64,000 nt of DNA from Devosia sp. 66-22 (GTDB lineage Bacteria; Pseudomonadota; Alphaproteobacteria; Rhizobiales; Devosiaceae): positions 62,001-126,000 of the forward strand of contig MKUZ01000022.1 in assembly GCA_001899065.1 (NCBI GenBank). The letters run 5' to 3'. The notes under the pieces were generated by a model that was not told where the DNA came from, ran no database searches, and worked only from the letters and a program-made list of their open reading frames with translations. The position numbers were made by a program, and so were the translations under genes. Below are positions 10,655 to 56,004 of this stretch, piece after piece (positions within the stretch are counted from its first letter, which is position 1; each line of letters starts with the position of its first letter).

Positions 10655-10680
10655 ACTACATCGAACGGAGACATAAGAGC

Positions 10681-12849: not shown

Positions 12850-12867
12850 CCCGGGCAAGGAGCCCAA

Positions 12868-40023: not shown

Positions 40024-40803
40024 TTAGACCGGATCAGGCGCCAGCTCGGCAATCAGTAGGTCCACCCCCGCATTGGCGATCGCCTGCCGCCAGCGCGCCG
40101 GGACGGGGTCCGCGATCACGTGCGAGAGGTTGGACACTGTGCCGACCACGAAGGTGGCGTTCCGTCCGAACTTGCTGGCGTCCACCAGCGCAATGCGTTG
40201 CCGGGAACGGGCCAGCATGCGCGTATTGAGGCTGGCCTCGGCCAGGTCGCCCGTCGAAATGGTCAGGTCGTCGCCGACCGCCCCGGCGCCCATGAACAGC
40301 TGGTCGAAATGCATGCGGTCGAGCTGTGATTCGGCGATCGGACCGACGATGCAGGCATTGGCCGGCCGGACTTCGCCGCCGAGGATCATCACGGCGACAC
40401 CCGGTACGCCCATCAGCTCCTGCGCCACCGGCAGGCCGTTGGTGACGGCCGTCAGCGGCATCGGCTCGAGCCGCAGCCGCCGCGCCAGCTGCAATACGGT
40501 CGTGCCGGCATCGAGGAAGATGGTCGTGTGCGGCCGCAGCATGCCGAACGCCAGGTCGGCGATGGCGCGCTTGGCGGCGATGTTGGCACTTTCGCGCAGG
40601 CCGAAGGCAAGCTCCGTGCTCGCGCCCTGCGCCAGCCGCGCGCCGCCATGGACGCGCTCGATCAGGCCCTGTTTCTCGAGCGTGAGCAGGTCGCGGCGGA
40701 CCGTGGCGATCGAGGCGCCGACGGCCTCGCACATGTCGCCAATGGCCATCTGGCCATTGGTGTAGAGCTGCTGCCGGATTGCACCGAGACGATCGATCTT
40801 CAC
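40024..40803 (-). CDS. DeoR-family transcriptional regulator
   Basis: 259 residues from a GTG at 40803, preceded by a run of six Gs and the only start that gives a standard N-terminus (KIDRLGAIRQQLYTNGQM). The helix-turn-helix reads CEAVGASIATVRRDLLTLE, then LIERVHGGARL. The effector domain has IFLDAGTTVLQLARRL, VTNGLPVAQEL, ILGGEVRPANACIVGP and LVDASKFGR. DeoR regulators usually sense phosphorylated sugars. It is divergent from the amino-acid importer cluster at 41016-48604 and probably represses it. Confidence 0.9.
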   Translation of the reverse strand: MKIDRLGAIRQQLYTNGQMAIGDMCEAVGASIATVRRDLLTLEKQGLIERVHGGARLAQGASTELAFGLRESANIAAKRAIADLAFGMLRPHTTIFLDAGTTVLQLARRLRLEPMPLTAVTNGLPVAQELMGVPGVAVMILGGEVRPANACIVGPIAESQLDRMHFDQLFMGAGAVGDDLTISTGDLAEASLNTRMLARSRQRIALVDASKFGRNATFVVGTVSNLSHVIADPVPARWRQAIANAGVDLLIAELAPDPV

Positions 40804-40946
40804 CGCATTTCCCCCCAAGCGGACGCCCCGCCGGCATGACACGAGCGCGATGGCATCGCTTCAAGCCTATAGCGTCAAGAAATCACGTTCGCTAGTCGCG
40901 ACGCGCCAATCGCTCAAAAACGGTCATCTTTTTTGTAGTTATGTGA

Positions 40947-40976
40947 TTGACGATGGCCACATTGCGGCTTTAGCAT
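40947..40976 (+). promoter_or_regulatory. Promoter of the DeoR-controlled cluster
   Basis: TTGACG (40947-40952), 18 bases, then TAGCAT (40971-40976). It lies 40 bases before the first permease start in the divergent region, after an AT-rich stretch (CATCTTTTTTGTAG). Good -35, moderate -10. No DeoR operator repeat was clearly seen. Confidence 0.5.
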
Positions 40977-41015
40977 TCCCACCCATCGGCAAGATGGTGC
41001 CGGCGGTTGGGGTCA

Positions 41016-41702
41016 ATGCGGATCGATTTCTCTCCGGTGCTTTCGCGCCTGGACTATCTGCTGGAAGGGCTGGCGGTGACGGTGCTCGTCGCCGTGGCGG
41101 CCATTTTCCTCAGCTTCGCGCTCGGCCTGCTGCTCGCCATCTGCCGCATTTCCCGCACTCGCGGGCTGCGCATCTTCGCGTCGGTCTACATCGATGTGTT
41201 CCGAAACACGCCGTTCATCGTCCAGCTCTTTTTTCTCTACTACGGCCTCCCCGAAATCGGGATTCCAACCGACCCGATGCCGACCGGCATTCTAGCGCTG
41301 AGCCTCGCCTGTGCCGCGGGCAATGCCGAGATCATCCGCGCAGGAATCGAGACGGTGTCGAAGGGCATTGTCGATGCGGGGCGCTCGTTCGGCATGTCCG
41401 GCTATCAGATCTACCGCTACCTCATCCTCCCCAACGCGCTGCGCATTGCGTGGCGGCCGCTCGGGAACGCGTTCGTCAACCTCGTGCTGACCACGTCGGT
41501 CCTGTCGACGATCACCGTCAATGATCTCGCGGGCAACGCGGCCAATGTGTCGGCCGAAACCTTCAAGCCCTTCGAGGTCTATCTGACGGTGCTGGTCACC
41601 TATTGCGCGGTCACCTTCACGGTCTCCGGGATCGTCAATTCCATCTATGCGCTGCTGTTCTCACGCGTTGCGGAGCGTCCGGTGATGCGGGGGCACGCAT
41701 GA
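41016..41702 (+). CDS. Polar amino-acid ABC permease 1
   Basis: 228 residues from the ATG at 41016 (an in-frame TTG at 41007 is possible). Membrane helices start with YLLEGLAVTVLVAVAAIFLS. YIDVFRNTPFIVQLFFLYYGLP and the coupling motif GIVDAGRSFGMSGYQIYRYLILP mark the HisM/GlnP family for polar amino acids and opines. Its stop overlaps the next permease start as ATGA. Confidence 0.92.
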   Translation: MRIDFSPVLSRLDYLLEGLAVTVLVAVAAIFLSFALGLLLAICRISRTRGLRIFASVYIDVFRNTPFIVQLFFLYYGLPEIGIPTDPMPTGILALSLACAAGNAEIIRAGIETVSKGIVDAGRSFGMSGYQIYRYLILPNALRIAWRPLGNAFVNLVLTTSVLSTITVNDLAGNAANVSAETFKPFEVYLTVLVTYCAVTFTVSGIVNSIYALLFSRVAERPVMRGHA

Positions 41703-42382
41703 TCTACCAGAACCTCGAATTCAGCATCGCAGACCTCTATCTGCTCTGGCGCGGCCTGCAGTGGACGTTGCTCGTGTGGAGCGTCTCGATGGCACTGGGG
41801 ATCGGGCTCGGCTTCGTCCTGTCGCTGATCCGCCATGCGCGGATTCCGGTACTCGCCCAGATGGTGGTGGTGTTCGTTGAGACCTTCAGGAACTCGCCGC
41901 TGCTCGTGCAGCTTTTCCTCGTCTTCTACGGCCTGCCGATGGTCACTCCCTTCGCGCCGGGGCCGGCGGAGGCCGCGATCTTTACGCTGTCGATCAATAC
42001 CGCGGCGTTCACCGTCGTAAACCTCGTGGCGGCGCTGGATGCCATCCCGCGCGGCCAGTGGCAGGCAGCGTCGTCCTTCGGCCTGAGCTATCGACAGACC
42101 ATGCTCTATGTCGTGCTGCCGCAGGCCATTCGGACGGCCATTCCGCCCACCATGAACCTCGCCATCAGCCAGCTGCAGACCACGTCCCTGGTGTCGATCA
42201 TCGGCGTGACCGATCTCACCCGCTCGGGCCTCGTGCTCTACACGCGCACGCTCAAGCCCTTCATCATCTGGCCGATCATCGGCCTCGTCTACTTCATCCT
42301 CGCCAAGGTTCTCTCTCTCCTCGCCGCGCGTGTCGAACGCCGGCTGCAGGCGAAGAACACCTGGTTCGAAGCTGCCGCATGA
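41699..42382 (+). CDS. Polar amino-acid ABC permease 2
   Basis: 227 residues. FVETFRNSPLLVQLFLVFYGLP and GQWQAASSFGLSYRQTMLYVVLP repeat the family's features, and the two permeases form a heterodimer. The start at 41699 overlaps the previous stop. The ATPase begins 10 bases after its TGA. Confidence 0.92.
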   Translation: MIYQNLEFSIADLYLLWRGLQWTLLVWSVSMALGIGLGFVLSLIRHARIPVLAQMVVVFVETFRNSPLLVQLFLVFYGLPMVTPFAPGPAEAAIFTLSINTAAFTVVNLVAALDAIPRGQWQAASSFGLSYRQTMLYVVLPQAIRTAIPPTMNLAISQLQTTSLVSIIGVTDLTRSGLVLYTRTLKPFIIWPIIGLVYFILAKVLSLLAARVERRLQAKNTWFEAAA

Positions 42383-42392
42383 GGCTCGCCCA

Positions 42393-43115
42393 ATGATCGA
42401 AATCGACAATGTCGACAAACACTACGGCAACCTTCAGGTGCTGAGCGCGGTGTCGATGCAGTTCCAGGACGGCGAGGTGACGGCGATCCTGGGGCCGAGC
42501 GGCGCTGGCAAGTCGACGCTCATCCGCTGCATCAACTGCCTCGAGTTGATCTCGCAGGGCGATATCCGGGTCGATGGCATGTCGGTGCTCGACAAGCATC
42601 GCACGGCGGAGATCCAGAAGCGCACCTCGATGGTGTTCCAGCACTTCAATCTCTACCCGCACCTCACGGCGCTCGGGAACATCACGCTCGCACCGACCAA
42701 GGTCCTCCGCCAAAGCCGTGCGCAGGCCGAGGCCAAGGCCATGGAGCTGCTCAAGATGGTGGGCCTTGAAAACAAGGCCAAACGCTATCCGGCCGAGCTT
42801 TCCGGTGGCGAGCAGCAGCGCGTCGGCATCTGCCGCGCCCTCGCGATGAATCCCCGTCATCTGCTGCTCGATGAGGTCACTTCGGCCATCGACCCCGAAA
42901 TGACGGCGGAGGTCCTGCGGGTCATCGAGGATCTCGCGGGGCAGGGCACGACGATGATTCTCGTCACGCACGAGATAGAATTCGCCCGGCGCGTCGCCGA
43001 TCGCGTCGCCTTCATGGAGCGCGGCAGCCTCGTCGCGCATCAGGACGCCGATACGTTCTTCAATCGGCAGTCGGACGAACGCATCGCCCGCTTCATCGAC
43101 AAGATGAAGCACTGA
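42393..43115 (+). CDS. Polar amino-acid ABC ATPase (GlnQ/HisP type)
   Basis: 240 residues from the ATG at 42393; a longer reading from 42330 would overlap the permease. Walker A GPSGAGKSTLIRCINCLE, VFQHFNLYPHLTALGNI, signature LSGGEQQRVGICRALA, Walker B HLLLDEVTSAIDPEM and VTHEIEFARRVADRV. The usual DEPTSALD reads DEVTSAID here, a mild but odd change. It powers the two permeases upstream and belongs to the amino-acid, not the sugar, branch. Confidence 0.93.
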   Translation: MIEIDNVDKHYGNLQVLSAVSMQFQDGEVTAILGPSGAGKSTLIRCINCLELISQGDIRVDGMSVLDKHRTAEIQKRTSMVFQHFNLYPHLTALGNITLAPTKVLRQSRAQAEAKAMELLKMVGLENKAKRYPAELSGGEQQRVGICRALAMNPRHLLLDEVTSAIDPEMTAEVLRVIEDLAGQGTTMILVTHEIEFARRVADRVAFMERGSLVAHQDADTFFNRQSDERIARFIDKMKH

Positions 43116-43116
43116 C

Positions 43117-44040
43117 ATGCTGATCGTCACCAACCACGAAGGCGGCGTCGGTATCGGCGAGACCGCCAAAGCCCTTCGCGACGGGCGTCCGGCACTCGAT
43201 GCGGCCGAGGCCGGCGTGCGTCTCGTCGAGGTCGACCCAGCGATCCGCAGCGTCGGCTACAACTCCTGGCCCAACATTCTGGGGCAGGTCGAGCTCGATG
43301 CTGCCGTGATGGATGGCACGACGCTGCGCACCGGTGCCGTGGGCGGCCTGGTGGGCTATCGCAATCCGGTCTCGGTCGCGCGCGCCGTGATGGAACGTCT
43401 GCCGCACGAGATCCTTGTCGGTGCCGGGGCGGCGCGGTTCGCGGCCGAGATCGCAGCGGAGCGCCTCGACAACCTCACGCCCGCCGCCCACGCCACCTGG
43501 CAGCGCGTCCTCAACGAATCCCTCGACGAGCGCCAGCGGGCCGCGTTTCCCGACATCCCATTGTCGGAGCTCTGCCAGCGCGCCACCGACCCCGAGTATC
43601 AAAAGGACACGACCGTGTTTCTCGCGATCGACGGGCAGGGCGGCATGGCCAGCGCGGTGAGCACATCGGGCTGGGCGTGGAAGTATCCGGGGCGTCTGGG
43701 CGACAGCCCCATCATCGGCGCGGGTTCCTATGCCGATGCGGCCTATGGCGCCTGCGCCTGTACGCATACGGGCGAAATGACGATCCGCGCCGGCACGTCG
43801 CGCGCCGTCGTCCTCTATCTCAAAATGGGCCTCAGCCTCGAAGACGCACTCTTTGAAGCCGGACGCGATCTGCGCCGCCTCAAGGGCGGCCTCATTCGCG
43901 GCGTGGCCCTGCATGCAATCGATGCCCAAGGCAACCATCGCGTCGCCTCGTTCGGCGAAGCCAAGGGTGTCGACTACTGGATCTGGGAACATGGAATGGC
44001 GGCCCCTGAGCGGCGCGTCGCCATGCACCTTGATGTCTGA
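43117..44040 (+). CDS. Glycosylasparaginase-like Ntn hydrolase
   Basis: 307 residues of the family of N4-(beta-N-acetylglucosaminyl)-L-asparaginase and isoaspartyl peptidase. The nucleophile is Thr165, exposed by cleavage after Asp164 in YQKDTTVFLAID; GRLGDSPIIGAGSYAD and ACTHTGEMTIRAG downstream match glycosylasparaginase. The enzyme splits GlcNAc-asparagine into aspartate and amino sugar, or isoaspartyl dipeptides. No signal peptide, so it works on imported substrate. It starts one base after the ATPase stop, inside an amino-acid importer operon. Which substrate applies is not decided by the sequence. Confidence 0.85.
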   Translation: MLIVTNHEGGVGIGETAKALRDGRPALDAAEAGVRLVEVDPAIRSVGYNSWPNILGQVELDAAVMDGTTLRTGAVGGLVGYRNPVSVARAVMERLPHEILVGAGAARFAAEIAAERLDNLTPAAHATWQRVLNESLDERQRAAFPDIPLSELCQRATDPEYQKDTTVFLAIDGQGGMASAVSTSGWAWKYPGRLGDSPIIGAGSYADAAYGACACTHTGEMTIRAGTSRAVVLYLKMGLSLEDALFEAGRDLRRLKGGLIRGVALHAIDAQGNHRVASFGEAKGVDYWIWEHGMAAPERRVAMHLDV

Positions 44041-44082
44041 CGAAGTCAAAGGATGCCGGCAACGGCGACAAGGAGGAATGAA

Positions 44083-44874
44083 ATGAAGAAATCATGGATC
44101 ACGTCCGCAATCGCGGGGATCGTCCTGCTGTGCGGCAATGTGGGTGCCGCGCAGGCCGACGATCTGCAAAAGATCATCGACGCCAAGACGGTCCGCGCCG
44201 GCATCTGCCTGACGTCGGAGCCGGCGGGCTTCCGCGACGCCGACAACAATCCCAAGGGCTATGACGTCGACGTGGCAAACATGCTCGCCGAGCAACTCGG
44301 CGTGGCGCTCGAGATCGTCGAGGTTGAGGGTTCGACCCGCATCCCGATGCTGTTGTCGGACAAGATCGACGTCATCATCTGCAACATCACGGCCACAACC
44401 GAGCGCGCCAAGTCGGTCGACTTCTCGTTCCCGTACCTGCGCACCGGTATCCGCCTGCTCGTCCAGAAGGACGGCGGCATCACCGGCTTCCAGGATCTCG
44501 CCGGCAAGAAGGTCGTCGTCGGCCGCGGTACGACCGGCGAAGCCATGGTCAAGCAGCGCGCCCCTGAGGCGGAGCTGGTCTACATCGAGAACCCCGGCGA
44601 TGCGATCCTGCAGATGCGCCAGAAGAAGGCCGACGCCTATATCGAGGACAGCCTCGGCATCGACTGGATCGCCAAGACCTATCCGGACCAGCTGATGAGC
44701 CTGCCCGAAACCTACTCGTCCGATCCGATCACGCTGGGCATCCGCAAGGACAATCCGAGTTTCCTGCGCTGGCTCGATCTGTTCGCGTCGACCTACGTGT
44801 CGTCGGGACGCTATGACGAAACCTACCGCAAGTGGTGGGGCACCGAAGCTCCCAAGCTCAACGCGGTCTGGTAA
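44083..44874 (+). CDS. Polar amino-acid ABC binding protein
   Basis: 263 residues with a perfect AGGAGG seven bases before the ATG and a signal peptide (SAIAGIVLLCGNVGAAQA). Family marks: KIIDAKTVRAGICLTSEPAG, KGYDVDVANMLAEQLGV, IICNITATTERAKSVDFSFPY, and GTTGEAMVKQRAPEAE. It is the HisJ/GlnH-type receptor for the permeases encoded at 41016-42382. Its ligand pocket cannot be read, but the adjacent glycosylasparaginase suggests an asparagine derivative. Confidence 0.92.
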   Translation: MKKSWITSAIAGIVLLCGNVGAAQADDLQKIIDAKTVRAGICLTSEPAGFRDADNNPKGYDVDVANMLAEQLGVALEIVEVEGSTRIPMLLSDKIDVIICNITATTERAKSVDFSFPYLRTGIRLLVQKDGGITGFQDLAGKKVVVGRGTTGEAMVKQRAPEAELVYIENPGDAILQMRQKKADAYIEDSLGIDWIAKTYPDQLMSLPETYSSDPITLGIRKDNPSFLRWLDLFASTYVSSGRYDETYRKWWGTEAPKLNAVW

Positions 44875-44895
44875 CATCAATCAACTAAGCGACAT

Positions 44896-44926
44896 CGCCG
44901 CGCTTCGTCTTTCGCGAAGCGCGGCG
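44896..44926 (+). promoter_or_regulatory. Strong hairpin after the amino-acid binding protein
   Basis: A perfect 12-base-pair stem (44896-44907 with 44915-44926, arm CGCCGCGCTTCG) with a 7-base loop, followed by TCTTGACG. It lies 21 bases after the binding-protein stop and 23 before the next start. It is either a terminator or an attenuator that splits transport genes from the enzymes downstream. Confidence 0.65.
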
Positions 44927-44949
44927 TCTTGACGACTGCAGGAGGCACT

Positions 44950-46056
44950 ATGGTCGGGTTTTCGGGACTGGGTATGGACATGGGAACGCTCTCGCGCCTG
45001 TCGAGCGCGAAGACGCGCTCGATCAGTCCGGAGAACTTCACCGGCGAGAAGGGCAGGGGCGGCATGGCGGCGGAAGGCACCGGCGCCATCCATGCGCGGG
45101 AGCTCGGACGCGGCTGGAAGATCTCTCCCTCCATCGACATGGAGCCGGGTGAGCTCAGAACGCTCGCCGACATCGAAGGACCGGGCGCCATCCAGCAAAT
45201 GTGGATGGTCACGAACTCTCAGAAATGGCGCAGCCTCATTCTCCGCATCTACTGGGATGGCCAGGAGCACCCCTCGGTCGAAGTCCCGCTCGGTGACTTC
45301 TTCGCGAATGGCTGGGGGATCTACGCCCACGTCTCGTCGCTGGCGGTGTGCGTCAATCCAGGACGGGCCTTCAACTGCTATTGGGAGATGCCGTTCCGCG
45401 AGCGGGCGCGCATCACGCTGGAGAACCGCGACGGCGAGCCCTGCACGGTCTACTACCAGTTCAACTACACGCTCACCGAGGTCCCCGAGGATTGCGCCTA
45501 TTTCCATGCGCAGTTCCGCCGTACAAATCCGCTGCCCTATGGCGAGGTCTACACAATCCTCGACGGCGTGCAGGGGCGTGGCCACTATGTCGGCACCTAC
45601 ATGGCCTGGGGCGTCAACAACAACGGTTGGTGGGGCGAGGGCGAAATCAAGTTCTACATGGACGGGGATGGCGAGTTCCCGACCATCTGCGGGACGGGCA
45701 CCGAGGACTATTTCTGCGGCGGCTACAATTTCGATCCGGGAAGCATCGACCCGCGCAAGCCCGGCGGCTACACCGAATACACGACACCCTATGCCGGCCT
45801 GCCCCAGATCATCCGTCCCGACGGCCTCTACAACGCGCAGCAGCGCTTCGGGCTCTACCGCTGGCATATTCCCGACCCGATCCGCTTCGAGACGGATCTG
45901 CAGGTCACCATCCAGGCGCTCGGCTGGCGCATCGAGAAGAATCGCCGCTACCTCCCGCTGCAGGACGACATTGCGTCGGTCGCCTACTGGTACCAGACGC
46001 TTCCCACCGCCCCGTTCCCAGCTCTCGGCTCACGGGACGCGCTCGACGTGATCTAG
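44950..46056 (+). CDS. GH172 (DUF2961) family glycosidase
   Basis: 368 residues from the ATG at 44950 (GGAGG four bases upstream). The DUF2961 fold is a jelly-roll hydrolase; characterised GH172 members act on difructose dianhydride I, alpha-fructofuranosides or arabinofuranosides. The two conserved glutamates are visible: Glu230 in WWGEGEIKFYMDGDG and Glu252 in CGTGTEDYFCGGYNF. Other marks are GELRTLADIEGPGAIQQMW and YNAQQRFGLYRWHIPDPI. No signal peptide, so it is cytoplasmic. Its pairing with an amino-acid importer and a glycosylasparaginase is unusual. Confidence 0.87.
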   Translation: MVGFSGLGMDMGTLSRLSSAKTRSISPENFTGEKGRGGMAAEGTGAIHARELGRGWKISPSIDMEPGELRTLADIEGPGAIQQMWMVTNSQKWRSLILRIYWDGQEHPSVEVPLGDFFANGWGIYAHVSSLAVCVNPGRAFNCYWEMPFRERARITLENRDGEPCTVYYQFNYTLTEVPEDCAYFHAQFRRTNPLPYGEVYTILDGVQGRGHYVGTYMAWGVNNNGWWGEGEIKFYMDGDGEFPTICGTGTEDYFCGGYNFDPGSIDPRKPGGYTEYTTPYAGLPQIIRPDGLYNAQQRFGLYRWHIPDPIRFETDLQVTIQALGWRIEKNRRYLPLQDDIASVAYWYQTLPTAPFPALGSRDALDVI

Positions 46057-46059
46057 CCC

Positions 46060-46077
46060 CGTCGGGTTCGCCCGACG
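46060..46077 (+). terminator. UUCG-loop hairpin after the GH172 gene
   Basis: CGTCGGG (46060-46066), TTCG, CCCGACG (46071-46077), three bases after the GH172 stop. A stable 7-base-pair stem with a tetraloop but no T-run. It may mark a transcript end or a processing site before the M81 gene. Confidence 0.45.
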
Positions 46078-46166
46078 AAACACCGGTCGATTGACCCGGC
46101 CCCCGCTTCGTCCTTGTCTTGCAGGTACTGAGAGACCTGAAGGCACTGAAAGAAAAGGGGGACCGC

Positions 46167-47657
46167 TTGCGTGTCGCGATCGGCCTGCTGATGCAGGAGA
46201 CGAACACCTTCGTTCCGCAGCGCACCAACCTCGAGACCTTCCGCGCGGTGTATCTGCGCGAAGGTGACGAGTTGCTCAGCGGCTTCGCGACGGCGAGAAC
46301 GGAGATCCCCGCCTTCATCGACGTGCTCCGCTCGGTGGAGGCCGAGATCGTGCCCCTCATCGCCGCCAACGCGATCGCCAATGGCACGGTCACGCGCGCG
46401 GCGTTCGACGACCTGATGGCGCGCATGGTTGGCCGGCTGACCGGGGCGGGACCGGTCGACGGGGTGTTGCTGGCCCTGCATGGCGCCATGGTGGTGGAGG
46501 ACAATCCGGACGCCGAAAGCGAGATCGTCGCGCGGGTCGCCGAGGTGCTGCCACCGGGAACGCCGATCGGCGTGTCCTTCGACCTCCACGGCCACGTCAC
46601 GCCGCAGGCCATCCAGCCAGACGTCTTCTATGTCGGCTACCAGGAATACCCCCATATCGACATGTACGAGACCGGCGAGCGCACCGCTCGGCTGCTGCTC
46701 GAGACGCTGGCGCGCCGCCGCCGGCCGGTCATGGCCTTTGCCAAGCGCCCGCTGATCGTCAGCCCGGTGAAGGCACGCACGGTGGACGAGCCGCTCGCAA
46801 GCATCGTGCGGGAGGCGCGACGCATGGAGGCGACCGGCGAAGTGCTGCATGCGAGCCTGTTTCCGGTCCAGCCATGGCTCGACGTACCGGACCTCGGCTT
46901 CGGCGTGCTGGTATGCGCGGACGGCGACGTCGCCCGGGCCCAGCAGGCTGCCGACCGGCTGGCGGACATGGCCTGGGACAGGCGCGACCAGTTCGAGCCC
47001 GACCTCACCGCACTGACAGAAGCGATCCGCATCGGGCTCATCTCTGCTGGAACCACAGTCGTAGCGGATGCCGGCGACGCGCCTACTGGCGGATCGGCCG
47101 CCGACAGTACGGCGGTGCTCGCTGCCCTGTTGGCTGCGGGCGCAGACAGTGCGGGCAGGCTCTCCTACCTCACGCTGCGCGACGCGGCGGGCGCATCGCG
47201 GGCCATTGCCGCAGGCGTCGGCGCCGAGGTCAACCTTGCCGTCGGCCACGCCCATTCGGTCGCCGACGGTAAACCCGTTGCTATCCGGGCGCGCGTCCTT
47301 TCCGTCAGCGACGGCCGCTACCAGATGCGCGATGCCGGCGCGCGCGGCATGGTGATGGAGCAGGGGCCGACCGCGGTACTCGCCATTGGCGACATCCGGC
47401 TCGTGCTGCGCTCCCGGCCGGCCTACGAGTGGGATACAGGGATCTACGAGGCCTTCGGGCTTTCGATCCGCGATGCCGCGTTGGCCTTCGTGAAGTCTCC
47501 CTCGCACTTCCGCGTCGGCTTCGAGCCGCTGGCGGCCCGCGTGCTCACCGCCGACACGCCCGGCCCGACCTGTCCGAACATGCGGCGCCTCAATTTTTCG
47601 CGGGTCACCCGCCCGCTCTATCCCCTCGACGAGTTCACCCTCAAAGGCCGCCCATGA
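46167..47657 (+). CDS. M81-family metallopeptidase (MlrC-like)
   Basis: 496 residues from a TTG at 46167, preceded by AAGGGGG five bases upstream and giving the standard RVAIGLLMQETNTF start. The family is named after MlrC, which degrades linearised microcystin. Metal-binding marks are GVSFDLHGHVTPQAIQ and YQEYPHIDMYETGERT; DGVLLALHGAMVVED is conserved too. Substrates of most members are unknown; small or modified peptides are likely. It is coupled to the next gene by an ATGA overlap. Confidence 0.85.
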   Translation: MRVAIGLLMQETNTFVPQRTNLETFRAVYLREGDELLSGFATARTEIPAFIDVLRSVEAEIVPLIAANAIANGTVTRAAFDDLMARMVGRLTGAGPVDGVLLALHGAMVVEDNPDAESEIVARVAEVLPPGTPIGVSFDLHGHVTPQAIQPDVFYVGYQEYPHIDMYETGERTARLLLETLARRRRPVMAFAKRPLIVSPVKARTVDEPLASIVREARRMEATGEVLHASLFPVQPWLDVPDLGFGVLVCADGDVARAQQAADRLADMAWDRRDQFEPDLTALTEAIRIGLISAGTTVVADAGDAPTGGSAADSTAVLAALLAAGADSAGRLSYLTLRDAAGASRAIAAGVGAEVNLAVGHAHSVADGKPVAIRARVLSVSDGRYQMRDAGARGMVMEQGPTAVLAIGDIRLVLRSRPAYEWDTGIYEAFGLSIRDAALAFVKSPSHFRVGFEPLAARVLTADTPGPTCPNMRRLNFSRVTRPLYPLDEFTLKGRP

Positions 47658-48604
47658 CCGCACAGTCCGACGACACCACTTCGGTTGCTTCCGATCTCAA
47701 GCCGGAGTTCCTTTCCGATGGCCACCTGGCTATCGGGCCTTCGCCGCAGTTTCCGGAGGTGCCGCGTTGGGCGACCGTCGCCAACGTCCCCACACGGGAG
47801 CTGCCACCGATACCGCGCTATGTCTGCAAGCGGGTCGCCACCCCGCTCACGATCGACGGCCGCCTCGACGAGCCGGCCTGGCAACGGGCCGAATGGTCTG
47901 CCCCGCTGGGTCGCATCGAGACCGGCATCCTCGACGCGCCGCCATGCTCCGTGGCCCTGCTCTGGGATGAAACCTATCTCTATGCCGGATACCGCGTCAC
48001 CGATCCCGACATTCGCGGCGCGGCGGTTCGCCACCACGAGCAGCTCTACATGCGCGACGACGACGCCGAGATCTTCGTCAAGGGCGACGGGCGCTACTAT
48101 GAGCTGGGCGTCAATCCGATCAACACGATCTACGAGTTTCGCTGGACCTGGCTCGAGCCGCTCATCGAGAGCAGGGACTTCGCCGGGATCGAGGAGCTCT
48201 TCAAGACGCGGGACTTCGTCTACTACACCGCCCGCGGCGGTGAACGGGCCGGCCGCGTCGGTGATATGAACTGGGAGCTGCCCGGTCTCCGCCACGCCGT
48301 CGCGATCGATGGCACGCTCAACATGCCGCACGATGTCGACGCGGGCTGGACGGTGGAGTACGCGCTGCCCTGGGCCAGCCTCGCCCACATCGGCCTGGCG
48401 CCGCCCTCGCCCGGCAACGAACTCCGCATCCAGGCCTATCGCGCCTGTCATAACAGGGCCGAGTCCGAGAAGGCAGCCGAAATGGCCAAGGCCTGGCCGG
48501 GCGCTACCCCCTATGAAGGCTACACTTGGTCGACCATGGGCAACGGCAACGTGCACAATCCGGAGCGCTGGGCCTACGTCACGCTCAGCGATGAAGCGGC
48601 CTGA
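47654..48604 (+). CDS. Carbohydrate-binding family 9-like protein
   Basis: 316 residues; the ATG overlaps the M81 stop. Residues about 70-310 form a CBM9-like beta sandwich: PLTIDGRLDEPAWQRAEWS, VALLWDETYLYAGYRVTDPD, DDDAEIFVKGDGRYYELGVN, and NELRIQAYRACHNR. There is no signal peptide, which is odd for a carbohydrate-binding module, so it may be an intracellular binding or enzymatic variant. Its stop abuts the convergent IclR stop with no gap. Confidence 0.78.
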   Translation: MTAQSDDTTSVASDLKPEFLSDGHLAIGPSPQFPEVPRWATVANVPTRELPPIPRYVCKRVATPLTIDGRLDEPAWQRAEWSAPLGRIETGILDAPPCSVALLWDETYLYAGYRVTDPDIRGAAVRHHEQLYMRDDDAEIFVKGDGRYYELGVNPINTIYEFRWTWLEPLIESRDFAGIEELFKTRDFVYYTARGGERAGRVGDMNWELPGLRHAVAIDGTLNMPHDVDAGWTVEYALPWASLAHIGLAPPSPGNELRIQAYRACHNRAESEKAAEMAKAWPGATPYEGYTWSTMGNGNVHNPERWAYVTLSDEAA

Positions 48605-49372
48605 TCAGGCGTTCAGATCGCGGGAGATGACGGCGGCCATTTCGGCCATCCGTGCGCCGACCTTTGGGAGCAACTGTCGCGAGAGGCGCGAGCGGGGCGC
48701 CGACAGGCTGATCGCCGCGATCGGGTAGCCGCCGTCATCGATGATGGCGGCGCCCACGCAGGCGGCGTCGTCGGCGTTCTCGCCGGTCTCGGTGGAGTAG
48801 CCCTGCCGTGCCACCTGCCGGAGCTGGCGGGCCAGCAGCGACTGGTCGATCAGCGTTCTACTGGTTCGCGCCACGAGCGGCCGGCGGCCCAGTTCGGCCT
48901 GGAGCGCTGTTTCCGGCAGGCGCGCCAGCATGGCCTTGCCGAGCGCGGTCGAGTGCAGCGGATGCCGGTCGCCCACCTTGCCCTGGATGCGCAGCAGTCG
49001 CGTGCCTTCCACGACGTCCACATAATTCACCGCGCCATCGAGCATGACGGCGAGGTTCACGGTTTCCTGAAATTCGTTCACCAGCGTGATCATATGCGGA
49101 CGCGCGATCATGCGCAGCCGGTGCAGGCCGCTGTCAGCCTTGGCGAGCGAGCGGAACTTGGAACCGATCGAATAGGTGTTGGTGCTGTCGTCGAACGCGA
49201 CGAACCCGGACTCGACCAGCGTACGCAGGTAACGGAAGGCCGACGTCTTGGGCAGCTTCAGTTCGGCGCAGATGTCCGACAGTCCGAGCCCCGCGGTGCC
49301 TTCGGCGACCAGCTCAAGGACCGCCAGCGCCTTCTGCACGGGCAGAACGACATAGGGGGACGGCTTGTTCAT
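48605..49372 (-). CDS. IclR-family transcriptional regulator
   Basis: 255 residues from the ATG at 49372 (GGAG upstream); a longer frame to 49489 would cross its own promoter. The helix-turn-helix lies at about 10-70 (VQKALAVLELVAEGTAGLGL, LKLPKTSAFRYLRTLVESG). The effector domain has LQIRGKV-type LLRIQGKVGDRHPLHSTALGKAM (in parts), and GYSTETGENADDAACVGAAI. It is divergent from the aminotransferase gene at 49483, and a large inverted repeat lies between them, so it probably controls that operon and itself. Confidence 0.92.
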   Translation of the reverse strand: MNKPSPYVVLPVQKALAVLELVAEGTAGLGLSDICAELKLPKTSAFRYLRTLVESGFVAFDDSTNTYSIGSKFRSLAKADSGLHRLRMIARPHMITLVNEFQETVNLAVMLDGAVNYVDVVEGTRLLRIQGKVGDRHPLHSTALGKAMLARLPETALQAELGRRPLVARTSRTLIDQSLLARQLRQVARQGYSTETGENADDAACVGAAIIDDGGYPIAAISLSAPRSRLSRQLLPKVGARMAEMAAVISRDLNA

Positions 49373-49429
49373 CCTGTCTCCATCAAGCCCAGCCGTTCCT
49401 TCCAACGAAACGGCAGTTCCTTTACACGC

Positions 49430-49458
49430 ATTCTGGACCGTGATTGCCTTGATGACAA
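49430..49458 (-). promoter_or_regulatory. Promoter of the IclR gene
   Basis: On the minus strand TTGTCA (49458-49453), 17 bases, then CAGAAT (49435-49430). The spacing is ideal. The -10 box is inside the left arm of the inverted repeat at 49431-49440, which fits autorepression. The start point would be about 50 bases before the IclR ATG. Confidence 0.55.
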
Positions 49459-49482
49459 CACAGAGAAAATACCGGTCCAGAA
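49431..49482. promoter_or_regulatory. Ten-base inverted repeat between iclR and the aminotransferase gene
   Basis: TTCTGGACCG (49431-49440) and its exact complement CGGTCCAGAA (49473-49482) are 42 bases apart centre to centre, about four helical turns. One arm covers the IclR -10; the other ends on the base before the aminotransferase ATG. IclR proteins often act as dimers or tetramers on spaced half-sites, so this is a likely operator pair. Confidence 0.6.
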
Positions 49483-50805
49483 ATGCCACGTCCCCTGCAA
49501 GTCACTCTAAGCTTCGACAAGTCTGCCGCCCAGATCGCGGCGGGTGCCAAACTCGTTGCGGGTGGCGTGAACTCCAATTTCCGGCTCGGCATGTCGCCTG
49601 GTCCGCTGGTGTTCGAGCGCGGCGAGGGCGCGCATCTGATCGACATCGATGGGAACAGGCTGATCGACTACTACGGCGGCATGGGCGCCATGGTGCTGGG
49701 TCACAATCCGGCGCCGGTCTGCGAAGCCGTGACCCGGCAGATGCAGAGCGGCATCCTCTTCGCCGGGCAGTCCATGGTGGAGTATCGCGCTGCCGAACTT
49801 ATCCAGGCGCGCATTCCGTCGGCACAGCGCATCCGGTTCGGCTCATCGGGCTCGGAGGTCGCGCAGGCCGCTATGCGGCTCGCGCGCGCCGCGACCGGCC
49901 GGCGCACTATCGTCAAGTTCGAAGGGCATTACCACGGCTGGTTCGACAACATCCTGTGGTCGACCGCACCCGCGCTGAATGCCGCCGGCCCGAGCGACGA
50001 GCCCGTCCGCGTGGCCGGCAGCCTGGGGCAGAGCGCCGACGATGGGCGCGGAGTCGACGTTCTGCAGTGGAACGATCTGGCGGCGCTCGAGCGACGGCTG
50101 GCGCGGGGAGACGTGGCCGGTGTCATCATGGAGCCGGCGATGTGCAACCAGGGCGCCATCGCTCCGCTACCCGGCTACCTCGAGGGGGCACTGGCTGCCT
50201 GTCGCAGACACGGCACGATCCTGGTCTTCGACGAGGTCATCACCGGCTTTCGCCTGGGGGCCGGTGGCGCGCAGCAGCGCTTCGCCGTCACGCCCGATCT
50301 CTCGATCTTTGCCAAGGCCATCGCCAACGGTTTCCCCGCCGCGGCCATCGCCGGCAGAGCCGATCTGATGGATATGTTCGTCGACGGCGTCCTGCACGGA
50401 GGCACCTTCAACTCCCATCCCGTCGTCATGGCCGCACTGGTCGCCACTCAGCAAGAGCTGACGCCGGCTCACTATGACGCGACGTCGGCGCGTGGCCTGC
50501 GGCTGCGTGACGGTGTCGCGGGAGCGCTCGCCGCGGCCGGTATCAAGGCGCAGGTCACCGGATTTGAATCGATGTTCCACGTGGCCTTTGGCCTCGACGC
50601 GCCGGCGCGCAACTATCGCGACCTGGCGCAGGCCAACAAGCGCGGCTACGCGCTGTTCGCCCTGGCTCTGCTGCGACGCGGGGTGCGGGTGCTCGAGCGG
50701 GGCGCGTGGTTCGTTTCGGCGGCGCATGACGACGCCATCGTCGACCAGACGCTGGCGATTGTGACGGAAGCAGCGCTCGAGGTCGCTGCCCAGTTGGAGG
50801 GCTGA
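49483..50805 (+). CDS. Class III aminotransferase, glutamate-1-semialdehyde aminomutase-like
   Basis: 440 residues. The PLP lysine is Lys278 in SIFAKAIANGFPAAA. Other class III marks are VAGGVNSNFRLG, IDYYGGMGAMVLGHNPAPV, FGSSGSEVAQAAMRLARAAT, FEGHYHGWFD and FDEVITGFRL. The closest known enzyme by motif is HemL, but the setting beside a sugar importer argues for amino-group transfer on an amino sugar or amino acid in catabolism, not heme synthesis. No strong Shine-Dalgarno sequence: the dyad arm occupies that place. The frame is clean and of normal length. Confidence 0.85.
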   Translation: MPRPLQVTLSFDKSAAQIAAGAKLVAGGVNSNFRLGMSPGPLVFERGEGAHLIDIDGNRLIDYYGGMGAMVLGHNPAPVCEAVTRQMQSGILFAGQSMVEYRAAELIQARIPSAQRIRFGSSGSEVAQAAMRLARAATGRRTIVKFEGHYHGWFDNILWSTAPALNAAGPSDEPVRVAGSLGQSADDGRGVDVLQWNDLAALERRLARGDVAGVIMEPAMCNQGAIAPLPGYLEGALAACRRHGTILVFDEVITGFRLGAGGAQQRFAVTPDLSIFAKAIANGFPAAAIAGRADLMDMFVDGVLHGGTFNSHPVVMAALVATQQELTPAHYDATSARGLRLRDGVAGALAAAGIKAQVTGFESMFHVAFGLDAPARNYRDLAQANKRGYALFALALLRRGVRVLERGAWFVSAAHDDAIVDQTLAIVTEAALEVAAQLEG

Positions 50806-50952
50806 GCGGCGCCGACGGCCGGCCCCGTGCCGGAATACGAAATGGCGCACGGTGGCGTCGTCGGGTGCATCGCCTCCCGCGCCGCCGCCGGGTGCCCCAG
50901 GGCCCGACAACGGGCTCACAACACCGCGAAAACGAATAGTGGAGATGGAAAA

Positions 50953-52239
50953 ATGCGACTAACCAGACGTGCCCTCGCACCACTTGCCGTCGGATTGGCA
51001 ATGGCTCTCAGCCAGGGTGCCCATGCCGGCGAATTCGACGGCGTGGTCATCACTCACCTGACCCAAGGTGGCGCCGCAGACCGTATCGCCGGCTACAAGG
51101 CGCTGGCCGAGGAGTTCAAGGCCCAGACCGGCGCGACGATCCAGATCGTCGAGCAACCCTGGGAGCAGATGCAGACCGCGATCATCAATGACGCGATCGG
51201 CGGCACTGGCAGCTACGACGTCATCGACGTCGACAGCGGCTGGGATGCCAATGTGGCAGCCTATTTCGAGACGCTCGACGGGCGCATCGCGACCGCGGGC
51301 GTGGACATGAGCGACTATCAGGGCCTCAACGCGCTGATCGGCGTCGCTAACAATGTGCGCCACGGCATCCCGTTCACCGGTCGCTCCATGGTGATGTTCT
51401 ACCGCACCGATCTGCTCGAGGCTGCCGGACTTGCCGTTCCCACCACCTGGGAAGAACTCAACGCCGCCGCCGCCGCGCTCAACAAGGACGGTGTGTATGG
51501 CTATGTCGGCGCCGGCGTTTCGGTGCAGCTGATGAAGATGTTCTTCGGCGCCTATATGGGCAACGAAAAGCGCGTACTCTTCACGCCGGAAGGCAAGCCG
51601 ACGTTCAACAGCCCCGAAGGCGTTCGCGCGCTCGACCGGCTGAAGGAGTTGTTCTCCTACGCGCCGCGCGGCGTGTTCGGCATGGACATCCCGGAGGCCG
51701 ACCAGGTCTTCCTCAATGGCGAAGCCGCATTCACCATCGAGTGGCCCGACTACATCCAGCCCAGCCTCAATGACCCGGAGCGCTCCAAGGTCGTGGGGAA
51801 GTGGGCCGCCACCGTGCCGCCCGGACCGGGCAATGCCGGCCCCTGGTACTGGGCCATTTCCGGCGGCTCCAAGAACAAGGATGCGTCCTGGGCATGGCTG
51901 CAGCTGATCTCGTCGCCTGAAGCTTCGAAGTCGCTGATGATCGATCACGGCATCTACTCGACCCGCAATTCGGTGCTGCTCGACAAGGATGTCGAAGCGA
52001 AGTTCCCCGGCATGCAGGCGGTGGTCGACAGCTACAAGGCCTCGTTCTACCCCTCGTTCATCGCCTCGCCGACCTTCCTCGACTGGTTCCTCGGTTCTGC
52101 GGACATCTTCTCGGCGGCGCTGAACGGCAGCATCACCTCTGCTGAAGGCGTCCAGCAGTCGGCCGACCTGTGGAACAAAGTGTTCGATGCGTCCAAGGGG
52201 CCGCAGGGTTACAACTGGTCTGATGTCTTCGCCGAATAG
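50953..52239 (+). CDS. Sugar ABC transporter, solute-binding protein
   Basis: 428 residues from the ATG at 50953 (GGAG nine bases upstream) with signal peptide LTRRALAPLAVGLAMALSQG. The mature part is MalE/UgpB-like: RIAGYKALAEEFKAQTGATI, DVIDVDSGWDANVAAYFETL, FTGRSMVMFYRTDLLEAAG, and YWAISGGSKNKDASWAWLQL. It lies 147 bases after the aminotransferase gene. A hairpin follows its stop. Confidence 0.9.
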   Translation: MRLTRRALAPLAVGLAMALSQGAHAGEFDGVVITHLTQGGAADRIAGYKALAEEFKAQTGATIQIVEQPWEQMQTAIINDAIGGTGSYDVIDVDSGWDANVAAYFETLDGRIATAGVDMSDYQGLNALIGVANNVRHGIPFTGRSMVMFYRTDLLEAAGLAVPTTWEELNAAAAALNKDGVYGYVGAGVSVQLMKMFFGAYMGNEKRVLFTPEGKPTFNSPEGVRALDRLKELFSYAPRGVFGMDIPEADQVFLNGEAAFTIEWPDYIQPSLNDPERSKVVGKWAATVPPGPGNAGPWYWAISGGSKNKDASWAWLQLISSPEASKSLMIDHGIYSTRNSVLLDKDVEAKFPGMQAVVDSYKASFYPSFIASPTFLDWFLGSADIFSAALNGSITSAEGVQQSADLWNKVFDASKGPQGYNWSDVFAE

Positions 52240-52258
52240 TCTCGGCATCCCATCATCC

Positions 52259-52285
52259 GTCTCCTGGCGGCTACCGGCAGGAGAC
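52259..52285 (+). promoter_or_regulatory. Hairpin between binding protein and permease
   Basis: GTCTCCTG (52259-52266) pairs with CAGGAGAC (52278-52285); an inner CGG/CCG pair extends the stem across one mismatch around a three-base loop. It sits 19 bases after the binding-protein stop. The same placement is seen at 29146-29178 and 44896-44926. Confidence 0.55.
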
Positions 52286-52305
52286 ATTCAACAGGGGCAT
52301 AGCGC

Positions 52306-53214
52306 ATGCTCGGCAGACTGCTACGGGATGACCGCAAGGTTGGCCTGCTCTTCCTGATCCCCGGCGTTGCCGCGCTGCTCTTCACCTATGTGGTCCCGCT
52401 GCTCTATTCGCTGGGACTGAGCCTCGCCGACTGGGATATCCGCCGCCCTGGCTCGCAATGGGCCTTCGCCGGCCTCGACAACTACCTCGAAGTCCTCACG
52501 TCCGACGCGTTCTGGGAAGCAGGCGGCCGTTCGCTGGTCTATACGCTCGTGGCGCTCCCCGTGCAGCTCGTGCTCGGCACGCTGGTCGCCCTGCTGCTCA
52601 CCGACGAGCGCATCAATGGCAAGCTGTCCGCACTGACCCGCGTGCTCCTGCTCATCCCGCTCATGCTGCCGCCCGTCGTCCTGGGCATTCTGTGGCGCCT
52701 GCTCCTCAACGTGAACTATGGACCGACCAACCACCTGCTCGGACTGGTCGGCATCGAGCCGCTGACCTGGGTCTCGGCGCCGGACACGGCGATGATGGCG
52801 GTCATCATGGTCGAGGTCATCTCCAACACCTGCGTCGTGGCGATGATCCTCATCGGCGGCATCCTGTCGCTGCCGGTCGAGCCGCTCCGCGCCGCCGAAG
52901 TCGATGGCGCCGGCCCGCTGCGCATCCTGTTCGAGATCAAGCTTCCGCAGCTTGCATCCTACTACCTCATCATCATCCTCATCCGGCTGATGGATCTGCT
53001 CAAGACCTTCGATTTCATCTACGCGCTCACCGGCGGCGGTCCGGGCGAAGCAACGCTGGTGCTCAACCTCTACATCTATCGCGTCGGCCAGCGCTTCCTC
53101 GACTACCCGCTGGCCTCGGCGGCCTCGTGGATATTCCTCATCATCCTGCTGCCGCTCTCGATCTGGCTGCTCCTGCGCGCCGTCTCCTCGTCCCGCGAGT
53201 ACCTCAATGACTGA
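52306..53214 (+). CDS. Sugar ABC permease (MalF/UgpA type)
   Basis: 302 residues, six helices. It begins RDDRKVGLLFLIPGVAALLF, with coupling motif LRAAEVDGAGPLRILFEIKL and LTGGGPGEATLVLNLYIYRV near the end. It overlaps the next permease by eight bases. Confidence 0.9.
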   Translation: MLGRLLRDDRKVGLLFLIPGVAALLFTYVVPLLYSLGLSLADWDIRRPGSQWAFAGLDNYLEVLTSDAFWEAGGRSLVYTLVALPVQLVLGTLVALLLTDERINGKLSALTRVLLLIPLMLPPVVLGILWRLLLNVNYGPTNHLLGLVGIEPLTWVSAPDTAMMAVIMVEVISNTCVVAMILIGGILSLPVEPLRAAEVDGAGPLRILFEIKLPQLASYYLIIILIRLMDLLKTFDFIYALTGGGPGEATLVLNLYIYRVGQRFLDYPLASAASWIFLIILLPLSIWLLLRAVSSSREYLND

Positions 53215-54085
53215 CACGACCGCGCCCCTTGCCGCTCCAGCGCCCGCTCCTCCAGTCCGCACGCGCCTCGAAACGCTCGCACTCTATGTGTGCCTCTTCG
53301 TGCTCCTCGCGGTCATCATCTTCCCGATCTACTGGCTGGTGCTCAACTCGCTGAAGTTCCAGCGCGACTTCTTCACCAACCCGCCGGTCTATTTTCCGCC
53401 CGAGCTGACGCTTGGTCACTGGGGAGAAGCGATGGGCAATCCGCTGAACCAGCGCTACATGCTCAACACCGCGGTCGTGGCGGTCATCTCCACCTTCACC
53501 GCCACCGCGGCCGGCACGCTGTGCGCCTACGTGCTGGCGCGCATCCGCATGCGCTGGCGGCTCAATGGCATTCTTCTGTTCGCCATCCTGATCTGCCGCC
53601 TGTTCCCGCCGGTGAGCCTCGCCATCCCCTACTATCTGCTGATGCGGCAGTTCGGCCTGCTCGATACGCAGGCTGCACTGGTGATCGCCTACACCGGCCT
53701 GGCGCTGCCCTTCGTCACCTGGATGATGCTCACCTTCTTCCAGGATCTGCCCAAGGAGGTCGAGCGCGCCGCCATGGTCGACGGCTGCACCGTGGTGCAG
53801 CGCTTCCTCTGGGTCGTGCTGCCCATGTCGGTACCGGCGATGGCCGTCTCCGCCACCTTCGTGTTCATTGCCGTGTGGAACGAGCTTCTCTACGCAATCA
53901 CGCTGACCACGCTCAACGCCAAGACCATACCGGTGGCCATCGCCAGCTTCGTGGGCGACAACGCGCTCGCCTGGGGGCCGATGAGCGCGCTCAGCGTTGC
54001 CTCTTTCGTCCCGGTGCTCCTGCTGGCCCTCGCCGCCCAGCGCTATCTCATCCGCGGCCTCACCTTCGGCGCCGTGAAAGGCTGA
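53207..54085 (+). CDS. Sugar ABC permease (MalG/UgpE type)
   Basis: 292 residues. An Ala/Pro-rich cytoplasmic N-terminus precedes six helices. The coupling motif is EVERAAMVDGCTVVQRFLWV, and the protein ends RGLTFGAVKG, typical of the MalG group. Its ATPase partner starts three bases after the stop. Confidence 0.9.
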   Translation: MTDTTAPLAAPAPAPPVRTRLETLALYVCLFVLLAVIIFPIYWLVLNSLKFQRDFFTNPPVYFPPELTLGHWGEAMGNPLNQRYMLNTAVVAVISTFTATAAGTLCAYVLARIRMRWRLNGILLFAILICRLFPPVSLAIPYYLLMRQFGLLDTQAALVIAYTGLALPFVTWMMLTFFQDLPKEVERAAMVDGCTVVQRFLWVVLPMSVPAMAVSATFVFIAVWNELLYAITLTTLNAKTIPVAIASFVGDNALAWGPMSALSVASFVPVLLLALAAQRYLIRGLTFGAVKG

Positions 54086-54088
54086 TCC

Positions 54089-55174
54089 ATGGCAAATTAT
54101 CTCCGTCTCGACCGGATCACCAAGAGCTTCGGTTCCTTCACCGCCGTCAGTGACGCCACGGTCGACATCGCGCCGGGTGAGTTCACCACGCTTGTCGGTC
54201 CCTCCGGCTGCGGCAAGACCACCTTGCTCAACATCGTCGCCGCGCTCGAGCGGCCCAGTTCCGGCGCGGTGATGATCGATGGCAAGGACGTCACGCAGCT
54301 CTCCGCGCGCGAGCGCGGCATCGCCATGGTGTTCCAGTCTTACGCGCTGTATCCGCACCTGACGATCCGGCAGAACCTCGGCTTCCCATTGCGCGTGCAG
54401 AAAGTCGCCAAGCCAGAGCGCGAGCGCCGCGTGCGCGAGGTGGCCGAGCTGGTCGAGATCGGCCACCTGCTCGACCGCAAGCCACGCGAGCTGTCCGGCG
54501 GCCAGCGCCAGCGGGTGGCCATCGGCCGCGCCATCATCCGGCCCTCGACCGTGTGCCTGCTCGACGAGCCGCTGTCCAATCTGGATGCCGCGCTGCGTGT
54601 CCGCGTGCGTGCCGAACTCAAGCTGCTGTTCGGGCGCATGGGAACGACCACGCTCTTTGTAACCCACGACCAGTCCGAAGCCATGACCATGAGCGATCGC
54701 ATCGTGGTGATGCGCGACGGCAAGGTGCAGCAGCAGGGCAAGCCTCTCGAACTCTACCAGAAGCCGGCCAACGCCTTTGTCGCAAGCTTCATCGGTTCGC
54801 CGCAAATGAACCTGATGGAAGCGCGAGTCGACAGCGAGGGCGGGCGCGCGCTGCTTCGCGCCGGCTCCCTCACCCTGCCGCTCGATGACGGACAGGCGGC
54901 CCGTCTCGGCTCGCGCCGCGCCGTCACGCTTGGCATCCGGCCCGAAGCGATCACGATCAATCGCGTGCCCGGCGGCGCCAGCCTTGCCGCACGCATAGAA
55001 CTGGTCGAGCACCTGGGCAATTCGGCCATCGTCCACTATCGCGGCCCCGCCGGCGACCAGATCGTGGGCATGGAACTGCTCGACGCCTCGATCGGCGCCG
55101 GCTGGTCGGGCGAAGCATGGCTCGATCCGGCCTCGGTCCATCTGTTCGACACCGAAACCACGTTGGCGCTGTAG
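54089..55174 (+). CDS. Sugar ABC ATPase (UgpC/MalK/MsmK type)
   Basis: 361 residues. Walker A VGPSGCGKTTLLNIVAALE, signature LSGGQRQRVAIGRAI, Walker B VCLLDEPLSNLDAALRVRVR, switch VTHDQSEAMTMSDRI, then a TOBE-type C-terminal domain (GSRRAVTLGIRPEAI). It energises the permeases just upstream. It is the only sugar-type ATPase in this window, while two other sugar importers (27421-30408 and 58591-61651) lack one, so it may be shared. MsmK-like sharing is known in other bacteria. Confidence 0.92.
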   Translation: MANYLRLDRITKSFGSFTAVSDATVDIAPGEFTTLVGPSGCGKTTLLNIVAALERPSSGAVMIDGKDVTQLSARERGIAMVFQSYALYPHLTIRQNLGFPLRVQKVAKPERERRVREVAELVEIGHLLDRKPRELSGGQRQRVAIGRAIIRPSTVCLLDEPLSNLDAALRVRVRAELKLLFGRMGTTTLFVTHDQSEAMTMSDRIVVMRDGKVQQQGKPLELYQKPANAFVASFIGSPQMNLMEARVDSEGGRALLRAGSLTLPLDDGQAARLGSRRAVTLGIRPEAITINRVPGGASLAARIELVEHLGNSAIVHYRGPAGDQIVGMELLDASIGAGWSGEAWLDPASVHLFDTETTLAL

Positions 55175-55176
55175 CC

Positions 55177-55986: not shown

Positions 55987-56004
55987 TCGCACCAGGAGAA
56001 AATC

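Follow-up and report, generated by a model that had tools for sequence, protein, structure and literature searches.

A predicted glycosylasparaginase gene linked to an amino-acid-type importer in Devosia sp. 66-22 and its possible role in the uptake of glycosyl-asparagine

In Devosia sp. 66-22 (G000, genome 4.36 Mb), a gene for a glycosylasparaginase-like protein (GA) lies among the genes of an amino-acid-type ATP-binding cassette (ABC) importer, and this importer and GA are a linked unit that recurs in related genomes. The window analysed here is a stretch of 64,000 nt on contig 22 (MKUZ01000022.1, positions 62,001 to 126,000), within which the locus looks like two modules. Module A (40024-46056) holds a DeoR-family regulator, the importer with its receptor, the GA, and a GH172 glycosidase; module B runs from 46167 onward, starting with genes for an M81 metallopeptidase-like and a CBM9-like protein. 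Judged from these sequences, there is a somewhat better than even chance that module A serves the import and intracellular hydrolysis of glycosyl-asparagine.

An earlier note, made from the letters of the window, had listed the genes of this cluster and placed the GA between the ATPase and the binding protein of a complete importer. Family matches confirm the gene content, with some starts refined, and the placement of the GA holds and is conserved in relatives. On the plus strand there are two amino-acid-type permeases (perm1, 41016-41702, BPD_transp_1 1.5e-19; perm2, 41699-42382, BPD_transp_1 2.7e-14), the importer ATPase (42393-43115, ABC_tran 1.9e-33; all three starts refined), the GA, an N-terminal nucleophile (Ntn) hydrolase with a D164-T165 junction (43117-44040, Asparaginase_2, PF01112, 1.3e-57), and a family-3 solute receptor (44083-44874, SBP_bac_3, PF00497, 2.1e-33). 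A receptor of this family, two permeases and an ATPase are thus all together, as in a polar amino-acid ABC importer. These first five plus-strand genes are tightly packed: the permease genes overlap by 4 nt, the later gaps through the receptor are 10, 1 and 42 nt, and the GA begins 1 nt past the ATPase stop. The GH172 gene (44950-46056, plus strand, start refined) follows after 75 nt that contain a 12 bp perfect hairpin read from the sequence (44896-44926, strand not applicable), which is absent from the terminator predictions. The regulator gene is divergent (40024-40842, minus strand, DeoRC 9.5e-45). Among the cluster proteins, the receptor alone has a signal peptide, as judged by eye.

The linkage was followed in 136 genomes of the family and 385 of the class. 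GA relatives in the family fall into three tiers, at 80% identity (G039 and G011, the latter Devosia algicola), at 49-52% (15 further genomes and a second copy on contig 6 of the same genome as the window), and at 35-47%, mostly over partial-length alignments. In the 49-52% tier the order perm1-perm2-ATPase-GA-receptor is kept, with the exception of G019. Relatives of the receptor (E<=1e-40) number 19 in 18 of the 136 family genomes, and 18 of these lie directly next to a GA gene; in the class sample, where up to 6 candidates were scored per genome, the receptor is present in 2 of 385 genomes, in three copies that each adjoin a GA. Importer relatives were seen beside 16 of 17 GA-clade loci and beside none of 12 generic Asparaginase_2 loci, the control covering about 1.5 kb on each side and relatives of the window importer only. 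Conservation of the importer-GA-receptor order across relatives indicates that it is not due to chance.

The second importer-GA-receptor cassette of this genome lies at 9296-13134 of locus L003 (G000:C6:216001-236000). Its GA is 50% identical to that of the window, a LacI-type gene adjoins it, and a DUF5054 gene is about 4 kb away. In D. algicola (L034) the receptor gene, at 8851-9417, is in two pieces in an operon that is otherwise conserved, which may be sequencing error or decay. In a plasmid search of the sequences themselves, which does not speak to gene order, GA matched 11 records, all below 60% identity, GH172 matched 61 and CBM9 matched one; no record was found for M81 at 1e-60.

Beyond the class sample, the best 80 of at least 501 GA relatives in public genomes gave 79 loci, one (L120) having no GA call. 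Neighbours were counted within 5 genes, or within 8 for M17, Opp, GH2 and CUT1, using gene calls that missed some genes. An importer is present in 40 of the 79, and these importer-linked loci have LacI in 34 cases, ROK kinase in 16, CutC in 14 and GH172 in one (D. algicola). Among the remaining 39 there is an M17-type gene in 16, LacI in five, ROK in four and CutC in five, while 16 of the 79 loci have none of the sought features. The 16 M17-type loci are from Serratia, Vibrionaceae and Pasteurellaceae, with an oligopeptide and/or sugar importer called in 15, a GH2 mannosidase-like gene in six and a GHL6/fucosidase-like gene in one; the M17, GH2 and GHL6 labels were confirmed by Pfam for one member per group. 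One ROK protein tested scores best as a GlcNAc (N-acetylglucosamine) kinase (199.2 bits, cut-off 380). Together, this gene content suggests a salvage route for glycopeptide remnants that is centred on the GA and can be combined with different transporters.

In Photobacterium and Vibrio (L070, L075, L078) the GA has genes for an oligopeptide importer and an M17 aminopeptidase as neighbours, joined at some loci by a GH2 mannosidase-like gene, and these look like N-glycopeptide loci. CutC lies beside the GA in 19 of the 79 loci (L037, L056, L085, L114 and others), often directly after the ROK kinase. CutC is widespread and, to our knowledge, its biochemical role is unsettled; it may act on the glycosylamine product of the GA, which offers a lead on its function.

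The identity of the hydrolase is indicated by several comparisons. By sequence, its best solved relatives are glycosylasparaginases (1.4e-39, 139.6 bits), ahead of the best isoaspartyl type (5.6e-33, 117.9 bits); by profile, glycosylasparaginase scores 178.7 bits and isoaspartyl peptidase 127.3 bits; and the ten best solved matches to its predicted fold (mean confidence, pLDDT, 88.5) are all glycosylasparaginases. The putative D164-T165 junction aligns with the D-T self-cleavage junction of 9gaf. The window GA shares its fold, the Asp-Thr junction and an aligned GR.GDSP motif with the flavobacterial glycosylasparaginase (1p4k, 9gaf), but is only about 30% identical to it and has additional residues ahead of the cleavage site.

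The receptors of the window and of G039 come together as a clade in the receptor tree (100/100), and this clade groups in turn with 44 cassette-type receptors (100/98), so labelled by identity and not by GA presence in each row. The clade lies apart from 26 others, whose placement is unsure because of long branches; the broken D. algicola receptor was too short to include. The predicted fold (pLDDT 85.8) matches amino-acid receptors, with the opine receptor NocT at rank 35, and the deoxyfructosyl-amino-acid receptor 5l9o is among the solved relatives (7e-17). Residues R108 and D189, presumably the contacts for the carboxylate and the amine respectively, are invariant in 20 aligned rows. The next closest receptor in the same genome is 34% identical and lies among genes that, by eye, suggest ectoine use. 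This receptor lineage, present in alpha-, beta- and gammaproteobacteria, looks specialised for asparagine that carries a sugar, as is left over when N-glycoproteins decay.

The GH172 protein (PF11175, DUF2961, 4.7e-100) has as its best solved relative 8ic8 (4.6e-137, 460 bits, nearly whole length), which we take to be ExoMA1 of PMC10509167. Both catalytic glutamates are aligned, in WWGEG and GTGTED (E291 and E270 of alphaFFase1), the nucleophile and acid/base roles being those given in the accessible part of PMC8605356. The specificity asparagine is kept as well (GGYNFD, against GAWNFD at ExoMA1 position 253 as counted on the alignment); according to the accessible part of PMC10509167, this position is Gly in the fructofuranosidase and Asn excludes fructofuranose. 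The protein is thus closest to exo-alpha-D-arabinofuranosidase and is predicted to be cytoplasmic, which places the D-arabinofuranosidase family in a new setting: the ExoMA1 locus is described in the same source as one for D-arabinan with GH183 and GH116 genes, whereas the window GH172 gene follows a GA and an amino-acid importer. Two further GH172 genes of this genome lie behind a sugar importer and an oligopeptide importer. Among 15 family genomes searched, G039 and G011 apart, four have GH172, with LacI and a sugar importer in three (G116, G117, G088) and Opp-type genes and LacI in the fourth (G067). Mycobacterial arabinogalactan, which bears galactosamine (PMC10115798, in the part available), was considered as a joint source of D-arabinofuranose and galactosamine and was rejected, since it leaves the GA unexplained.

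From these parts, a route can be proposed in which the receptor (44083-44874) would use the contacts customary for amino acids to bind asparagine with a sugar on its side-chain amide, and this conjugate would then enter through the importer. In the cytoplasm, the GH172 protein would act as a retaining furanosidase and trim a furanoside from the end of the conjugate or of accompanying molecules, homology suggesting alpha-D-arabinofuranose as the residue removed. The Ntn hydrolase would cut itself before T165 and split the sugar-asparagine amide into aspartate and a glycosylamine, which would decay to free sugar and ammonia. The sugar may then pass to amino-sugar catabolism, by kinase, SIS and GatZ proteins in two relatives and by the SIS, GatZ and PfkB-like gene products of contig 18 here, with the AgaR-like DeoR protein controlling the operon from its divergent gene. 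The earlier note had likewise proposed an imported sugar-amino-acid conjugate, which fits because the importer-GA unit of relatives frequently has genes for sugar kinases and other sugar functions beside it; its inclusion of M81 and CBM9 among the working parts is not upheld by synteny.

The divergent position of the regulator is what suggests its control of the operon. Its best NCBIfam match is AgaR, at 166.4 bits, which misses the cut-off of 260, and it is 70% identical to the DeoR proteins of G039 and G011. A possible promoter or operator, TTATGTGATTGACG (40939-40952, plus strand), is shared with the promoter region of these two by sequence comparison, and promoter-like sites are no commoner than in shuffled sequence. 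In L033 the shared stretch is near 6550, and that promoter region further contains GTTATGT...ACATAAC, a possible DeoR operator.

Behind DeoR in G039 and G011 there are genes for a BadF-type kinase, an SIS protein and GatZ. In G039 the kinase is NagK-like (74.9 bits, cut-off 370), the SIS protein scores 111 bits with GlmD, 93.8 with GlmS and 74.3 with the AgaS family, all far below the cut-offs, and GatZ scores 550.4 bits (cut-off 568.8). In the window's own genome none of these three genes adjoins DeoR, and contig 18 carries a DeoR paralogue (56%), an SIS protein (51%), GatZ (50%) and what by eye is a PfkB-type kinase. An amino sugar is the natural reading for the sugar released, with galactosamine rather than glucosamine only hinted at by GatZ. 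Bacterial aga sets likewise combine a DeoR-family regulator with SIS and GatZ, but here the AgaR cut-off is missed, the SIS protein scores higher with GlmD and GlmS than with the AgaS family, and a deacetylase was not noticed in the stretches examined. Elsewhere in the window, at 9707-14682, a gene for a BadF-type kinase (NagK-like, 150.9 bits, cut-off 370) lies ahead of three genes resembling zwf, pgl and edd by eye.

A number of observations weigh against the glycosyl-asparagine route. There is no kinase, deacetylase or deaminase gene beside DeoR in the window, and GH172 was seen with a GA of this type in three genomes, of which two (G039, G011) are near-identical at this locus. Alignments of the GA start at residue 15 or 16, so that Trp11 of the flavobacterial enzyme is not covered and Asn6 falls there by offset. 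The 18 receptor-GA pairs, all within a single family, are not independent cases; the GA of G019 has no importer, and no GA was found in the 12 kb examined around the receptor of G093. We know of no natural glycosyl-asparagine with D-arabinofuranose. Within the GA tree, the clade of the window groups first with 12 GAs that are importer-less within the stretches examined (100/99), then with the M17-linked group and three more, and not with the importer-linked GAs. A tree constrained to place the window GA with the importer-linked side is worse by 22.3 log units (approximately unbiased test, p-AU 0.013), the constraint having been framed after the tree had been seen; an earlier clade constraint (p-AU 2.7e-73) was set aside for this fairer test, its constrained set being split by the tree itself. 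The window GA is therefore not borne out as a plain member of the importer-linked clade. With its receptor among the cassette receptors and its GA from another branch, the receptor lineage would appear to have kept, or regained, a GA partner; this mismatch, the oddest feature of the locus, can be read as a functional tie.

The same parts can be read in other ways. It is possible, though somewhat doubtful, that several glyco-amino acids are imported, the GA acting on N-linked ones and the GH172 protein separately on O-linked alpha-D-arabinofuranosyl-serine or -threonine, as on some pilins, so that the two enzymes never meet one molecule. GH172 genes elsewhere in the family are plugged into other importers, which would suit this, and GH172 enzymes free D-arabinofuranose from pilin glycans (PMC10115798, in the part available). 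The argument is one of homology alone, however. Nor do we know of a free D-arabinofuranosyl-serine or -threonine that serves as a nutrient. That the importer and Ntn hydrolase serve beta-aspartyl compounds, either isoaspartyl dipeptides or sugar-free N4-substituted asparagines, with the hydrolase an isoaspartyl peptidase, seems unlikely. Both enzyme types belong to one Pfam family and fold, the unaligned Trp11 position and offset Asn6 would allow for it, and the receptor is of ordinary amino-acid type; but glycosylasparaginases come first by sequence, profile and fold, the cassette of relatives is repeatedly surrounded by sugar genes, and isoaspartyl peptides alone leave the GH172 gene without explanation.

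The solved receptor relatives NocT and 5l9o would point instead to an opine or an Amadori compound such as fructosyl-asparagine. These are not among the closest receptor relatives, however, and neither module A nor the SIS protein has a deglycase or amadoriase among its family matches (the library was not checked for a deglycase model). A free alpha-amino group is also expected to be required by the GA, and this substrate is considered very improbable. An extended pathway from DeoR to CBM9, in which M81 and CBM9 would be new recruits of this genome, is improbable on other grounds. The genes are adjacent on the same strand and no terminator-like site is predicted between GH172 and M81, so that a shared transcript is possible, but M81 and CBM9 are absent from the G039 and G011 loci and from the 79 public GA loci, the M81 gene of relatives lies near IclR and aminotransferase genes, and a 110 nt gap separates it from GH172 here.

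Returning to glycosyl-asparagine, uptake of a glyco-amino acid coupled to a GA is already known. The alf-2 cluster of Lactobacillus casei takes up fucosyl-alpha-1,6-GlcNAc-Asn, as the accessible part of PMC6960285 shows by knockouts and by AsnA2 and SugK assays; there, 1-amino-GlcNAc, the product of AsnA2, is said to decay without an enzyme. The claim in the earlier note that no such pathway had been described thus falls in part to this precedent and holds in that the transporter and glycosidase differ. From what that part reports, alf-2 likewise combines glyco-amino acid uptake, a trimming glycosidase, a glycosylasparaginase, a dedicated regulator and a sugar kinase, and its cluster has a peptidase gene; its permease is of the major facilitator superfamily, its glycosidase an alpha-L-fucosidase, its regulator GntR and its kinase ROK. 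The window has instead an ABC importer of amino-acid type, GH172 and DeoR, with no kinase alongside, and AsnA2 was assayed whereas the window GA is known from sequence. A GA, its own transporter and a candidate trimming glycosidase are all present in the window, with a kinase beside DeoR only in G039 and G011. No other published importer-GA or CutC-GA pathway, and no ABC importer paired with a GA, was found among titles and abstract openings, a search whose coverage leaves out most subscription journals. What differs is the amino-acid-type ABC importer-GA operon, with GH172 in a small lineage.

A bolder joint proposal would be that the operon consumes an undescribed asparagine-linked glycan with alpha-D-arabinofuranose and a galactosamine-series sugar, that the cassette is a common proteobacterial glycosyl-asparagine route, and that GA-associated CutC is the missing glycosylamine hydrolase; as a whole this is decidedly improbable. 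If such a glycan were the substrate, proteins with D-arabinofuranose-bearing N-glycans would exist in the surroundings.

Module B begins on the plus strand with the M81 gene (46167-47657, DUF1485 1.6e-88, MlrC_C 1.1e-42), which has a TTG start behind a GGGGGA site; the gap before it contains a 7 bp hairpin and no terminator-like site is predicted there on either strand. The CBM9 gene (47654-48604, plus strand, CBM9_1, PF06452, 1.4e-7) overlaps the M81 stop. Beyond it are, by family match, IclR (48605-49489, minus strand) and a class-III aminotransferase (49483-50805, plus strand), and then a sugar-type ABC importer with receptor, two permeases and ATPase (50827-55174, plus strand, 71-80% identical in G087). 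The stretch 46167-57168 also includes SDR and M20 amidohydrolase genes, and parts of it recur in G087, G366 and G275.

The DeoR-perm1-perm2-ATPase-GA-receptor-GH172 set, with DeoR divergent, recurs in G039 and G011 (70-88% identity), where an SDR gene comes next in place of M81 and CBM9. Since these two loci are near-identical, with SIS proteins 100% identical, they count as one further occurrence of module A. Of the conservation in related genomes by which the earlier note had proposed to check the cluster, that of importer and GA is therefore seen, that of GH172 beside GA extends to this near-identical pair, and that of M81 and CBM9 is lacking. M81 (E<=1e-100) is present in 2 of 136 family genomes (the window's own and G087) and, with up to 4 candidates scored per genome, in 7 of 385 class genomes including its own. 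In three of the five M81 relatives examined there is a class-III-type aminotransferase nearby: the order is M81, an enolase-superfamily gene, IclR, aminotransferase, sugar importer and SDR in G087; IclR, an Opp-type receptor, aminotransferase and M81 in G366, where the contig ends just past M81; and aminotransferase, Opp-type genes and M81 in G275. In G191 and G313, M81 has no IclR or aminotransferase nearby in the stretches examined, and no GA or GH172 relative was found in the stretches of any of the five. A close CBM9 relative (77%, G095) has no GA within the 10.6 kb examined, the contig ending directly behind it. On this synteny, M81 and CBM9 are probably members of the adjoining module B, and were set aside as core parts of a GA pathway; their co-transcription with module A in the window is possible. 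Separating them out guards against a false pathway.

On the other side of module A, the genes preceding DeoR are, by eye, kdp genes. A set of LacI, sugar importer and GH172 adjoins kdp-like genes in G116 and G117 (L155, L158), and this position, common to the window and these two genomes, may be a shared insertion spot.

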